Origin: a bacterium
GTDB lineage: Bacteria; JAJRZV01
Assembly (NCBI GenBank): GCA_024275095.1
Contig: JAJRZV010000089.1
Coordinates: 1-6,337 of the forward strand
Length of the DNA: 6,337 nucleotides
Direction of reading: 5' to 3'
Under the pieces are notes generated by a model. That model worked only from the letters and a program-made list of their open reading frames with translations, made no database searches and was not told the origin of the DNA. Numbering within the stretch: position 1 is the stretch's first letter; every line of letters begins with the position of its first letter. The translations under genes were made by a program, and so were the position numbers. Shown piece by piece: positions 2,378 to 6,000 of the stretch.

Positions 2378-4489
2378 GTGTACAGCTGGCGATCAATTGG
2401 CGGTATCGCGTTGAGGAAAATAATTGCAGGGGTGGTTCTGTTAACGATACAGCTGGCGGGATGTGGGGGTACATCTGCATTAAAAGTCGTGTTCACGTCA
2501 CCGGAAAACGGGGCCTCGGGCGTTCCCATTGATAGCGTGTTTGTTATCGAGTTCAACAAAGCCGTTGATGTTAATTCCCTCGTCAGGGGCTACGGCTGGG
2601 ACACGAACATCCCGCATGCACGCGTTGTGATCAACCATGGCAGAATCATCCAGGTGTTTCCCGGAGAAGGACCTCTCGAGGAAAACCAGCAGTATATCTT
2701 GAAATTTTACAGGAAGCTTTCTTCTGCGGACGGGAAACACCTGGAGAGAGACTACGTGTTCACGTTTCAAACGGGAACAAAGGCTCCGTCTGTGGACTTC
2801 GATCTGCCCGTTACCGTTGCAAACGCGGCAGAAATAAAAACGCTTTACGCCTCGATTGTTGCAGATGAGACCGGAAATTATATTTTTTTCTCCAATGGTG
2901 AGCTTGTGTTATCGGGAACATACCAGGTGCCCCGGAGGGAGTTGTTTATACCTTTATCACAGTTTTCGCTTGAGGAGGGCTACAACCTTTTACGTCTGGA
3001 ATTCATGGATAAACAGGGCCTGAAAAGTATCGTTCAGAAAAGTTTTATTTACGATATCACTCCACCTGAACAGGTAAGTGATGCTGTGTTTTTACCTGCC
3101 GGATATGTAGAATTTACACCTGTAAAAGATAACCTCACGCCCGTGTCGTATCTTCTTTACCTGAGTTATAAAGTTTCTTCCACTTACGTTTATACAACCC
3201 AATGTGCTCCTGTGAATGTCACCACTGCCGGCAGTGTCACTTACGACGTCCTTGAAGAATGCAACGACCTGCCGCCGCTTTTTTTACAGGGAATGTACGG
3301 GAAAATCACGGCAGTTGACACTGCAGGTAACATGTCGGATGGAAACACCTTTACCGTCAGGTTTGCTGATCGATTTGCCCTGGATGTTTCCGGTCCTGTA
3401 CTCGACATGGCAGCATGTGGACTCAGGGGCGATTCACTGCAGGATTTCGCGGCGGTGGTAAGCGCTTCAGGAGCACTGTACCTGGACGTGTGGAGAGGGG
3501 GAAGTGATGGTCTTGGTGCGCCTTCGCCCCAGACCCACCCGGCCGCGGAAATTCCCCTTCCCGCCGCAACCGTACTGAAAGCGAAGGTAACGTGCGGTGA
3601 CGTGAATGGAGACGGCGTGAAGGACGTTGTCGTAGGATTGCCCGGCATGAGCGCCGGGAGGGGAGGACTCGTGTTCGTACCCGGCCAGGCAAACACCATC
3701 CCCACAGGATACGCTTTCACCATCTCGGGACAGGCAAGCGGTTCGCTCCTCGGCTACAGCGTTATAATTCAGGATGTTAATCAGGACGGCCATGTGGACG
3801 TGGTGGCAGGTGCCCCGGGAGATAATAATGTGTATGTATATTACGGGCCCGTGACAGCCGCGAAACCTTCTGACACGAAAATACTGCCGCCTGAAGGATA
3901 CCGATCCATGGGGCTGGAACTCCTCGGCCTGTCAGACGAAATTTTCAATGCAAGAGCGTTTGCTGTCTCTGCAACAGCTGAAACCAGCTCACGCACCGAG
4001 TACCTTCTTTTCGTAGATGCGAATTTTACGGGCGCCATCCCGGACGGAGAGGGAGGACTCGTTGCTCCTTTCATTGAAATCCCGGGTGCAGGGTCCTTTC
4101 GGGCAATAGCTACTGCCGGGGGATTCCCGGAAGGGAAATACTACATGCCCTGCGCTTCGGGCGTGTGTCCTTTTTATCACGCTCCCGTGCAGTTGCCCGC
4201 GGCGTGTTCTCGTGTGCGGCTGTGGCAGCTAGGTGTCGTTGACATTCGCTCCGTTCAAAAAGAAGCCATTTTTTACACGTGTACATACATGGGCAGCCAG
4301 GGCTTTCACGTGGAACTGAACGAGATTTCACCACGCAGAAAAATCACACCGTTGATAAACATCAGCGAAGAAAATTGGACACAGAGCTTTGCTCTCGAGA
4401 GCTTTGCTTCAGGTAATGTCTCAGGAGACACAAGAAGTGAATACTTCCTGTCCGCAGGAACACATCTTTTTTATTACACCCCCCAATAG
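2378..4489 (+). CDS. Predicted lipoprotein with Big_5-like Ig domain and FG-GAP (integrin-like) repeats
   Basis: The 703-aa protein has a lipoprotein signal peptide with hydrophobic residues 15-28 and lipobox LAGC (Cys29). Gly at +2 would favour the outer membrane under the enteric sorting rule. Residues 35-130 match the Big_5/SbsA Ig-like pattern (SPENGASGVP, then EFNKAVD, then a YVFTFQTG end). Residues 131-335 look like further beta-sandwich domains, including ITAVDTAGNMS. From about 340 to the end is an FG-GAP/VCBS-type propeller: the calcium loops DVNGDG (408-413) and DVNQDG (466-471) are 58 residues apart and each leads into DVV.G.PG. Weaker blades lie near 342-373 and 682-700. Start: GTG 2378 is the furthest usable codon. 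TTG 2411 gives a more compact signal peptide (MRKIIAGVVLL) and has GGCGG 7 bp upstream, so it is a real alternative. The role is probably adhesion or surface binding, not enzymatic. The stop codon touches the transposon junction, so the last residues may differ from the ancestral protein. Confidence 0.85.
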   Translation: MYSWRSIGGIALRKIIAGVVLLTIQLAGCGGTSALKVVFTSPENGASGVPIDSVFVIEFNKAVDVNSLVRGYGWDTNIPHARVVINHGRIIQVFPGEGPLEENQQYILKFYRKLSSADGKHLERDYVFTFQTGTKAPSVDFDLPVTVANAAEIKTLYASIVADETGNYIFFSNGELVLSGTYQVPRRELFIPLSQFSLEEGYNLLRLEFMDKQGLKSIVQKSFIYDITPPEQVSDAVFLPAGYVEFTPVKDNLTPVSYLLYLSYKVSSTYVYTTQCAPVNVTTAGSVTYDVLEECNDLPPLFLQGMYGKITAVDTAGNMSDGNTFTVRFADRFALDVSGPVLDMAACGLRGDSLQDFAAVVSASGALYLDVWRGGSDGLGAPSPQTHPAAEIPLPAATVLKAKVTCGDVNGDGVKDVVVGLPGMSAGRGGLVFVPGQANTIPTGYAFTISGQASGSLLGYSVIIQDVNQDGHVDVVAGAPGDNNVYVYYGPVTAAKPSDTKILPPEGYRSMGLELLGLSDEIFNARAFAVSATAETSSRTEYLLFVDANFTGAIPDGEGGLVAPFIEIPGAGSFRAIATAGGFPEGKYYMPCASGVCPFYHAPVQLPAACSRVRLWQLGVVDIRSVQKEAIFYTCTYMGSQGFHVELNEISPRRKITPLINISEENWTQSFALESFASGNVSGDTRSEYFLSAGTHLFYYTPQ
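4478..4486 (+). repeat. Left arm of 9-bp inverted repeat flanking the insertion element
   Basis: ACCCCCCAA here is the exact reverse complement of TTGGGGGGT at 5664-5672. The two arms lie just outside the element on either side, so without the element they could form a G/C-rich hairpin. This arm encodes the last three residues (TPQ) of the lipoprotein. A chance match of homopolymer-rich sequence is possible. Confidence 0.5.
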
Positions 4490-4506
4490 GGGTCGGGGTC
4501 GGGGTC
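4489..4506 (+). repeat. Three tandem GGGGTC hexamers at the left end of the element
   Basis: Three exact GGGGTC units start at 4489, 4495 and 4501. The third is the start of the left terminal inverted repeat; the right end has only one unit. The first G is also the last base of the TAG stop of the lipoprotein gene. The extra units may come from slippage or from an imprecise insertion. With the CCCC at 4481-4484, the first GGGG can pair as a CCCC-AATA-GGGG hairpin. Confidence 0.85.
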
Positions 4507-4524
4507 AGGTCTCAAGATTCAAGA
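4501..4524 (+). repeat. Left terminal inverted repeat
   Basis: The repeat begins GGGGTCAGGTCTCAA and ends ATTCAAGA. Read inward, it matches the reverse complement of 5633-5656 at 23 of 24 positions; the only difference is G here versus A there at position 16. Confidence 0.85.
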
Positions 4525-4529
4525 AAATG

Positions 4530-4597
4530 ATTGGTGGGAGTGGGAAGATAGTGTTTAAATTTTTTCTTTACCTTTGTAACCCACAGTTTTCACCAAT
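4530..4597. repeat. Imperfect subterminal inverted repeat on the left side of the element
   Basis: ATTGGTG (4530-4536) pairs with CACCAAT (4591-4597), and GTGGG (4540-4544) pairs with CCCAC (4580-4584), around a loop of about 35 bases. It lies between the left terminal repeat and the transposase stop codon. It could be a structured end recognised by the HUH transposase, or the 3' hairpin of the transposase transcript. On the minus strand it is followed by CATTTTCTTG, which is only a weak T-tract. Confidence 0.4.
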
Positions 4598-4610
4598 ATC
4601 CCTTGAAAGC

Positions 4611-5573
4611 TTATTGTGTTCTTAAATACACACATTCTTTGATCTTTTCTAACTTTTTTTGAAGTTTTTTATGTGATAGCAGACTTTTATGAAATCTTTT
4701 CACCATATCTGATACAGCTGCATAATCCATGTCAAATTTTTCTCCTATCTCTTTTAACGTAAGAGGCGTCAAGGATTTTAAAAGATAAAGAGCCATCTTC
4801 CTGGCTTCATTGTTTCGTTTTTTCTTGAAAATTTCTTCTTTTTCTACTCCGTAAACATATTGAACACCCGAAATTATCTCATCAAAACCATATGGTTGAT
4901 GAATCAAGTTCTTTTCCGAATACTCCCGTAACTTATCCTTTCTATTCTTCACCTTTTCCATAACTTCTTGAGCAAACTCGCTGCTACCAAGAATAAATCC
5001 GTACTGCACCTGCTGAAAAATATCTTCTTCTCTGCCCTGATTGCCATATACATATTCAATATACCCTTTCCCTCCTCTTTGTCCAAAAAAAGAAAGAATC
5101 CTCTCACACTCAAGCCACTCCGGTTTTTCCACCTTCCCGATGAAATATTTCAAGCTGCTCCATGGATACTCTTCAGCTTTCTTTAACATTTTTTTTCTAA
5201 CAGGATTAAGGTGAATGTACGCGCTTACTGCTAAAAGATAAGAATCATCTTCTATAAGTATTGCTTTATACCTCCCTTGGAAAACAGGTCCTATAAGCTG
5301 ATGCTTCGCTTTAACCCAGTTGGAGTAGGAAGCATTAAGAGCATGAAAAAATCTGCTGAGATTGGCAAACGGTGTCTCTACAATAAGATGATAATGATTA
5401 TCCATAAGCACATACCCGTGACATATCACCTGAAACCGTTCACATTGAATACCCAGCTTTTTGAGAAAAACTTCTCTATCTCGTGAAGTAAAAAATATAT
5501 TTTCTTTTCTAATTCCCCTTGAAAAGACATGGTAAAAAGCGCCTTCAAACTCTATTCGAAGTGGGCGAGCCAT
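4611..5573 (-). CDS. HUH (Y1) REP-associated-type transposase with C-terminal DnaA-domain-IV-like region
   Basis: This 320-aa protein is a single-strand DNA transposase of the IS200/RAYT superfamily. It starts MARPLRIEFEGAFYHVFSRG, typical of the family. The HUH motif is MDNHYHLIVE with metal-binding His60 and His62. GPVFQGRYKA (95-104) and AYIHLNPVR (118-126) follow; Tyr119 aligns with the catalytic tyrosine before the INP/LNP motif in E. coli RayT. The conserved YPWSSLKYF follows at 136-144. These key residues are intact, so activity is plausible. Residues about 231-298 resemble DnaA domain IV: KKKRNNEARKMALYLLK, then LTLKEIGEKF, then a DYAAVSDMVKRF helix, giving the protein a DNA-binding HTH beyond the usual short Y1 enzyme. 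From family knowledge I believe such Y1-DnaA_C fusions exist elsewhere. There is no Shine-Dalgarno before the ATG, so translation may be weak or leaderless. It is the element's only gene. Confidence 0.93.
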   Translation of the reverse strand: MARPLRIEFEGAFYHVFSRGIRKENIFFTSRDREVFLKKLGIQCERFQVICHGYVLMDNHYHLIVETPFANLSRFFHALNASYSNWVKAKHQLIGPVFQGRYKAILIEDDSYLLAVSAYIHLNPVRKKMLKKAEEYPWSSLKYFIGKVEKPEWLECERILSFFGQRGGKGYIEYVYGNQGREEDIFQQVQYGFILGSSEFAQEVMEKVKNRKDKLREYSEKNLIHQPYGFDEIISGVQYVYGVEKEEIFKKKRNNEARKMALYLLKSLTPLTLKEIGEKFDMDYAAVSDMVKRFHKSLLSHKKLQKKLEKIKECVYLRTQ

Positions 5574-5579
5574 TGTTTT

Positions 5580-5609
5580 ATTTTAACGACCAGATTTAAA
5601 AAAGAGCAA
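5580..5609 (-). promoter_or_regulatory. Possible promoter of the transposase gene
   Basis: On the minus strand, TTGCTC (5604-5609) is followed 18 bp later by TAAAAT (5580-5585), a 5/6 match to the -10 consensus. The -10 lies only 6 bp before the ATG, so a transcript from it would be nearly leaderless. This agrees with the missing ribosome binding site. The -35 match is poor (3/6), so the call is weak. Confidence 0.25.
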
Positions 5610-5629
5610 TCCTGCTTCATTCCCGGTCG
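5587..5629. repeat. Short subterminal inverted repeat on the right side of the element
   Basis: CGACC (5587-5591) pairs with GGTCG (5625-5629), and the interval contains a small AGCA-ATCC-TGCT hairpin. It occupies the position equivalent to the left subterminal repeat but does not share its sequence. Five base pairs could be chance. Confidence 0.2.
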
Positions 5630-5632
5630 AAA

Positions 5633-5656
5633 TCTTGAATTTTGAGACCTGACCCC
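5633..5656 (-). repeat. Right terminal inverted repeat
   Basis: The sequence ends TTGAGACCTGACCCC and is the reverse complement of the left repeat with one mismatch. It marks the right boundary of the element, next to the rpsT upstream region. Confidence 0.85.
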
Positions 5657-5663
5657 TTGGCTC

Positions 5664-5672
5664 TTGGGGGGT
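5664..5672 (+). repeat. Right arm of 9-bp inverted repeat flanking the insertion element
   Basis: TTGGGGGGT is the exact partner of ACCCCCCAA at 4478-4486. On the plus strand it is followed by TGCTTAT, a poor T-tract, so the ancestral hairpin could have been a weak terminator of the lipoprotein gene. The closer CCCC at 5653-5656 can also pair with these Gs. Confidence 0.5.
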
Positions 5673-5730: not shown

Positions 5731-6000
5731 ATGCCGAATATCAGATCGGCGAAAAAGAGAATGCGACAGGATCTCAAGAGACGCGAAAGGAATCGTCAGG
5801 TGAAGACAGAGGTTAAAAGTGTCATAAAGAAAATCAGGAAGCTTGTAGCCCAGGGTAAAATAGAGGAAGCCAGAGAGCTTCTCCCACGTGCCCAGTCCGT
5901 GATCGCCAGGGCGGGCTCAAAGAGGGTACTTCACAGGAATGCCACCAGCCGTAGAATCAGCCGGCTTTTCAGGCTGGTGAACAAGAAAGCTGCTGCTTAA
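5731..6000 (+). CDS. rpsT: 30S ribosomal protein bS20
   Basis: The 89-aa, very basic, helical protein begins MPNIRSAKKRMRQDLKRRER and contains the family's conserved stretches NRQVKTEVKSVIKKIRKL and GSKRVLHRNATSRRISRL. Length and sequence are those of full-length bS20, which binds 16S rRNA and helps assemble the small subunit. The start is fixed by the strong ribosome binding site. bS20 is bacterial, so it argues against an archaeal origin for the window. The gene converges with a hydrolase-like gene 25 bp downstream. No terminator hairpin is visible between them, only a T-run at 6022-6027. The element ends 74 bp before the start codon, so its proximal promoter may have been altered. Its usual neighbours (for example murJ or holA in some bacteria) are not seen here. 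Confidence 0.98.
   Translation: MPNIRSAKKRMRQDLKRRERNRQVKTEVKSVIKKIRKLVAQGKIEEARELLPRAQSVIARAGSKRVLHRNATSRRISRLFRLVNKKAAA

Follow-up and report, generated by a model that had tools for sequence, protein, structure and literature searches.

Which DNA is read by the DnaA-like tail of a Y1 transposase, and what does such a tail do for the element that encodes it? The question is raised by an element in the 6,337-nucleotide stretch of bacterial DNA analysed here (the window), the parts of which are as follows (window coordinates).

2378–4489: gene for an FG-GAP/Ig-like protein, neighbour of the element
4489–4500, plus strand: a further pair of GGGGTC copies in tandem, immediately beyond the left end, seen in the sequence
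4501–5656, gene on the minus strand: complete TIRYT-type element (inverted repeat 23/24, intact ORF, domain matches)
4501–4512, plus strand: cap GGGGTCAG and spacer GTCT of the gene-distal end (end logo of 69 elements)
4513–4526, plus strand: tandem heptamers CAAGATT CAAGAAA (lag-7 repeat signal within elements)
4611–5573, minus strand: transposase ORF, 320 aa, with H60, H62 and Y119
4635–4889, minus strand: DnaA-domain-IV-like region, residues 229–313 (Bac_DnaA_C, 1e-11; 1j1v, Z 15.1)
4695–4727, minus strand: recognition helix, residues 283–293 (DYAAVSDMVKR), of which columns 285, 286, 289 and 293 track the heptamers
5016–5573, minus strand: HUH/Y1 catalytic region, residues 1–186, with the TnpA-REP 4er8 fold (Pfam; Foldseek; Z 17.6)
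5631–5644, minus strand: tandem heptamers CAAAATT CAAGATT
5645–5656, minus strand: cap GGGGTCAG and spacer GTCT of the gene-proximal (promoter-side) end
5731–6000: rpsT, the other neighbour gene

The 24-nt inverted repeat (4501–4524 and 5633–5656) matches at 23 of 24 positions (96% complementary) and is the sole long inverted pair of the region. Together with the intact ORF, the residues H60, H62 and Y119 and the Pfam domains, it bears out the preliminary description of the locus as a complete HUH element. The stop codon of the upstream gene (4487–4489) touches the GGGGTC array, and a further inverted pair, CCCCCCAA (4479–4486) and TTGGGGGG (5664–5671), flanks the element; the upstream gene may have had its terminator hairpin interrupted by the insertion. 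An Rfam search of the window gave no match.

The window element fits a known, uncharacterised class as a complete member, namely TIRYT/TIRtron (2013) and TnpA-REP subclass 2.1.2 (2018), and its sequence is that of an autonomous TIRYT element (TIRtron) of putative mobility. The names TIRYT, for genes of this sort, and TIRtron, for the elements, come from the main text of Di Nocera et al. 2013, which gives GGGGWSAS as the end motif and reports that the end repeats of some genomes occur solo, in pairs or in groups (PMC3733652). According to the main text of Quentin et al. 2018, subclass 2.1.2 carries a C-terminal Bac_DnaA_C-like domain, with REPs absent nearby; the ends are unlike DnaA boxes, and the role of the tail was left open, the tail being perhaps uninvolved in target recognition or reading a new sequence (PMC6006769). 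The novelty implied by the preliminary description therefore falls away, as earlier papers on the class had described both its inverted-repeat ends and its DnaA-like tail (PMC6006769, PMC3733652).

Pfam placed Y1_Tnp at residues 14–121 of the transposase (37.5 bits, cut-off 23, E 3e-9) and Bac_DnaA_C at residues 231–292 (45.1 bits, cut-off 31.5, E 1e-11), both above the cut-offs, and H60, H62 and Y119 were invariant among ten homologues. The NCBIfam family REP_Tyr_transpos was also matched (1.1e-17), but with 64.2 bits against a cut-off of 80. In an AlphaFold2 model (mean pLDDT 87.7), residues 1–186 matched E. coli TnpA-REP (4er8, Z 17.6), IS608 structures matched with Z ~11, and residues 228–320 matched DnaA domain IV (1j1v, Z 15.1, rmsd 1.3; 3pvp, Z 15.5). 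Thus both the profile search and the structure prediction show the DnaA-domain-IV-like tail to be genuine, joined to a TnpA-REP fold. An AAA+ domain is absent, domain IV being the sole DnaA part in the protein. The base-contact motif of E. coli DnaA, D433-H434-T435-T436 (base-specific residues as given in PMC7561715 and PMC5742627), reads D-Y-A-A at residues 283–286. Since the contacts H434-T435-T436 are replaced by Y-A-A, the tail would not be expected to target a DnaA box.

The ends of approximately 100 elements proved to be two-part, a feature that is new here; the first of the two sets compared drew on the genome of the window, on 40 diverse genomes and on two phyla and a contig collection. 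Each consists of the cap GGGGTCAG, a 4-nt spacer and two tandem 7-bp repeats at positions 12–25. The ends were taken by a cap-anchored search, which yielded no end for about one-quarter of the homologues; an earlier cap-free search gave the same picture. In the logo of 69 elements, positions 0–7 (GGGGTCAG) and 10–11 (CT) were near-invariant, and left/right identity dropped to background past position 25, where the second heptamer closes. Thus the terminal inverted repeats of the preliminary description, 24 bp long and said to be simple, are present but not simple, each end being a cap followed by two tandem heptamers that run to about nt 25–26. The heptamer sequence varies among elements, and both copies in one element stay alike: identity at lag 7 was 0.61 within elements vs 0.47 when the second repeats were dealt among elements (z 8.5, 0/2000), most of the signal coming from position pairs 13/20 to 16/23 and other lags being weak. 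As the shuffle control retains the shared consensus, the two copies change together. The lag-7 signal was replicated in 24 new DnaA-type elements from a second, independent collection of 290 genomes (z 4.6, 0/2000). A text search of the main text of PMC3733652 and PMC6006769 turned up nothing on internal repeats of the ends, and a literature search with cap sequence strings found no paper on these elements.

We then compared variation in each part of the end with variation in each domain of the protein, using partial Mantel tests, which phylogeny inflates. In the first set, the heptamers tracked the C-domain (0.39, 0/500) and not the N-domain (−0.15), and the cap with its spacer tracked the N-domain (~0.3) and not the C-domain (~0). 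For the combined set (n=95), the heptamer values were 0.25 for C given N (0/1000) and 0.01 for N given C, and those of cap plus spacer 0.29 for N given C (0/1000) and 0.05 for C given N. Among the DnaA-type elements only (n=67), the cap tracked the N-domain alone (C 0.03, N 0.24) and the heptamers tracked both domains (C 0.18, N 0.15). The DnaA-type replication set (n=24) gave a heptamer/C-domain partial correlation of 0.08, which was not significant (192/1000), and its heptamers also tracked the N-domain (0.26); when 33 pairs of sister elements were compared, the contact residues tracked cap and heptamers equally (0.61 and 0.58).

A scan of single columns ranked recognition-helix residues 285, 286, 289 and 293 near the top for the heptamers, alongside P4, and residues 2 and 4 highest for the cap, with corrected significance lost once the ten elements of genome G039 were removed. 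The DnaA base-contact positions defined in the literature, a set tested on the same elements after the column scan had been seen and so not fully independent, tracked the heptamers (p<0.0005, and p=0.0012 against random column sets) but neither the cap (p=0.30) nor the sequence that follows the repeat (p=0.06). Relatives of 270–300 aa with a shorter HTH tail (such as L096, L104 and L134) carry another heptamer type (TTGCCTT) and display the same split, cap with N-domain and heptamer with C-domain.

The explanation that we favour, with a probability of about 0.68, assigns the reading of the cap, and the cut made there, to the HUH domain and the reading of the heptamers to the DnaA-like helix. 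The HUH domain would recognise the cap and cut the strand at its outer edge, and the recognition helix, with its altered base-contact residues, would bind the heptamers as double-stranded DNA, either in the chromosome or in the stem of two paired ends within the single-stranded element. The stoichiometry would fit, with one dimer (two tails) per stem (two heptamers). Transposition would be of the single-strand type, without target duplication and with a short, family-specific target beside the cap. The specificity of each family may lie in its heptamers, so that relatives sharing a genome would avoid cross-mobilisation, and the hairpin mini-elements and solo ends would have arisen as non-autonomous products comparable to REPs and REPINs. 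The covariation supports the idea, raised in the preliminary description, that the tail recognises the ends, with the tandem heptamers as the candidate site. This division of labour, which we infer from sequence, is well motivated and is not found in the main text of PMC3733652 or PMC6006769.

The window's own genome (2.45 Mb, 136 contigs) contains three full elements, C55 (the window element), C36 and C108, each with a different end sequence; the proteins of the two others are 57% and 42% identical to the window transposase. A pattern search of this genome found no second copy of the exact window element or its end, and with up to 3 mismatches the end had no other copy except two C36-like ends (2–3 mismatches). 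Exact further copies of the 24-bp ends, for which the preliminary description had proposed a search, are therefore lacking, and the related elements have ends of their own. As the window element is single copy, its own mobility is putative. A search for an empty site matched its flank to its own genome only. The C36 end is dispersed in the same genome as ~40 copies, which are conserved to position 25, where the second heptamer closes, and are preceded by the target TYC, with C at −1 in 36/41. In many cases (e.g. L017, L018, L026, L034 and L035, around position 1500), such a solo end is fused to a longer repeat that leads into a palindrome, GATTGCTTCGGTC...CTCGCAATGAC, making a composite from two repeat families that are unrelated to each other.

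Among 100 homologous elements, no target-site duplication was detected, direct flank matches being at chance level, and an extra GGGTC lay beside an end in 21/100 against 3.7% expected. The extra cap copies (GGGGTC) outside ends suggest either that elements insert next to ends already present or that ends are duplicated serially. Non-autonomous hairpin mini-elements of 74–75 bp, with the same cap-plus-heptamer modules and unrelated flanks, were found in G305; L311 (8829–8904), L356 and L357 consist of two facing ends that form near-perfect hairpins (MFE −46 kcal/mol for one). Two 153-bp elements in G258 (L351, 228–381; L352, 230–383), likewise non-autonomous and built with these modules, are located 3 kb apart, share 28-nt ends and have unrelated interiors. 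Relatives of the query occurred in 2 viral-contig loci, 20 plasmid records, just one of which covered 80% of the query, and 1 phage record.

Shared ancestry alone might account for the heptamer/tail covariation, the catalytic region reading the whole inverted repeat in the form of a hairpin stem, the way REP/RAYT systems do. Phylogeny does inflate Mantel-type tests, the sister-pair and small-set tests fail to separate cap from heptamer, and the mini-elements fold as near-perfect hairpins. However, cap and heptamer dissociate in opposite directions in the combined set, the signal is concentrated on the DnaA base-contact columns, and the lag-7 repeat identity is unnecessary for a stem; we regard this account as quite improbable. 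Less probable still is a reading in which the tandem heptamers are not a recognition site but represent the TTGACA-like −35 region of a promoter, or low-complexity sequence that arose by chance. Although TTGACAT is common among the heptamers and the gene-proximal end usually lies 20–100 nt ahead of the start codon, the heptamers are kept at both ends (left/right identity 0.83–0.99 up to position 22), occur also in solo ends and gene-less mini-elements, and include many variants that are not −35-like (GGAAACT, TTTAGTT and AAAGAAT); moreover, covariation within elements is above that of shuffles.

Another possibility, which we consider unlikely, is that the tail tethers the transposase to replication, via DnaA boxes or the replisome, and that the ends are read by the HUH domain only. 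The tail does fold like DnaA domain IV, and such targeting is proposed in the main text of Quentin et al. 2018 (PMC6006769). In the window's own genome, the cap strand of solo ends agreed with the local GC skew (G-rich strand) in 27/36, and in another count solo ends followed the skew in 31/43 (p=0.005). However, the strand bias was absent from six other genomes (29/66), a weak negative, most of these genomes having little local GC skew, and IS608-type enzymes have a replication bias without a DnaA-like tail. Moreover, H434-T435-T436 of DnaA are Y-A-A in the transposase, and the tail is tracked by the heptamers, not by the cap. Thus replication coupling through the tail, as put forward in the preliminary description, is not supported, the strand bias not being replicated and the contact motif being altered; nor is replication coupling in general.

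If the HUH domain reads the cap and the DnaA-like helix the heptamers, the two-part ends would offer a concrete candidate DNA site, with named residues, for a tail whose purpose the 2018 survey left open. The ends also hint at what separates HUH elements with inverted repeats from IS200/IS605 elements with hairpin ends, and at the origin of solo end repeats that resemble REPs. It is an evenly balanced proposition that TIRYT transposases in general are modular two-site readers, in which the HUH domain serves a cap that is nearly universal, and a second, exchangeable domain (DnaA-type or short HTH) reads the tandem heptamer and sets family identity. A change in the helix would then alter the ends recognised, and many such elements could coexist in one genome without cross-mobilising.

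In comparison with known systems, the window element has in common with TIRYT/TIRtron elements a RAYT-like Y1 HUH transposase, with its catalytic Tyr, between terminal inverted repeats, and GGGGTCAG at both ends agrees with GGGGWSAS; the tandem heptamers and their link to the tail are absent from the main text of PMC3733652. With TnpA-REP subclass 2.1.2 it shares the C-terminal Bac_DnaA_C-like domain (45.1 bits vs a cut-off of 31.5), and the difference lies in the candidate tail site proposed here, a point left open in the main text of PMC6006769. RAYT/TnpA-REP systems with REPs (E. coli, 4er8) have the same catalytic fold (Z 17.6) and dispersed non-autonomous end repeats, whereas GTAG-tagged palindromes are absent at the gene flanks of the window element, where a long inverted repeat capped by GGGGTCAG takes their place, and the transposase has an additional HTH domain. 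IS200/IS605 elements (IS608 and ISDra2) are similar in their HUH Y1 fold, the absence of target duplication and a family-specific target beside the end, but their recognised ends are subterminal hairpins; at the window element inverted repeats were found as the putative ends, and it is without tnpB and has an extra domain. The tail itself shares the fold of DnaA domain IV (rmsd 1.3 to 1j1v), but its base-contact residues are altered and it is fused to a transposase; DnaA reads a 9-bp DnaA box, whereas the inferred site of the tail is a heptamer.
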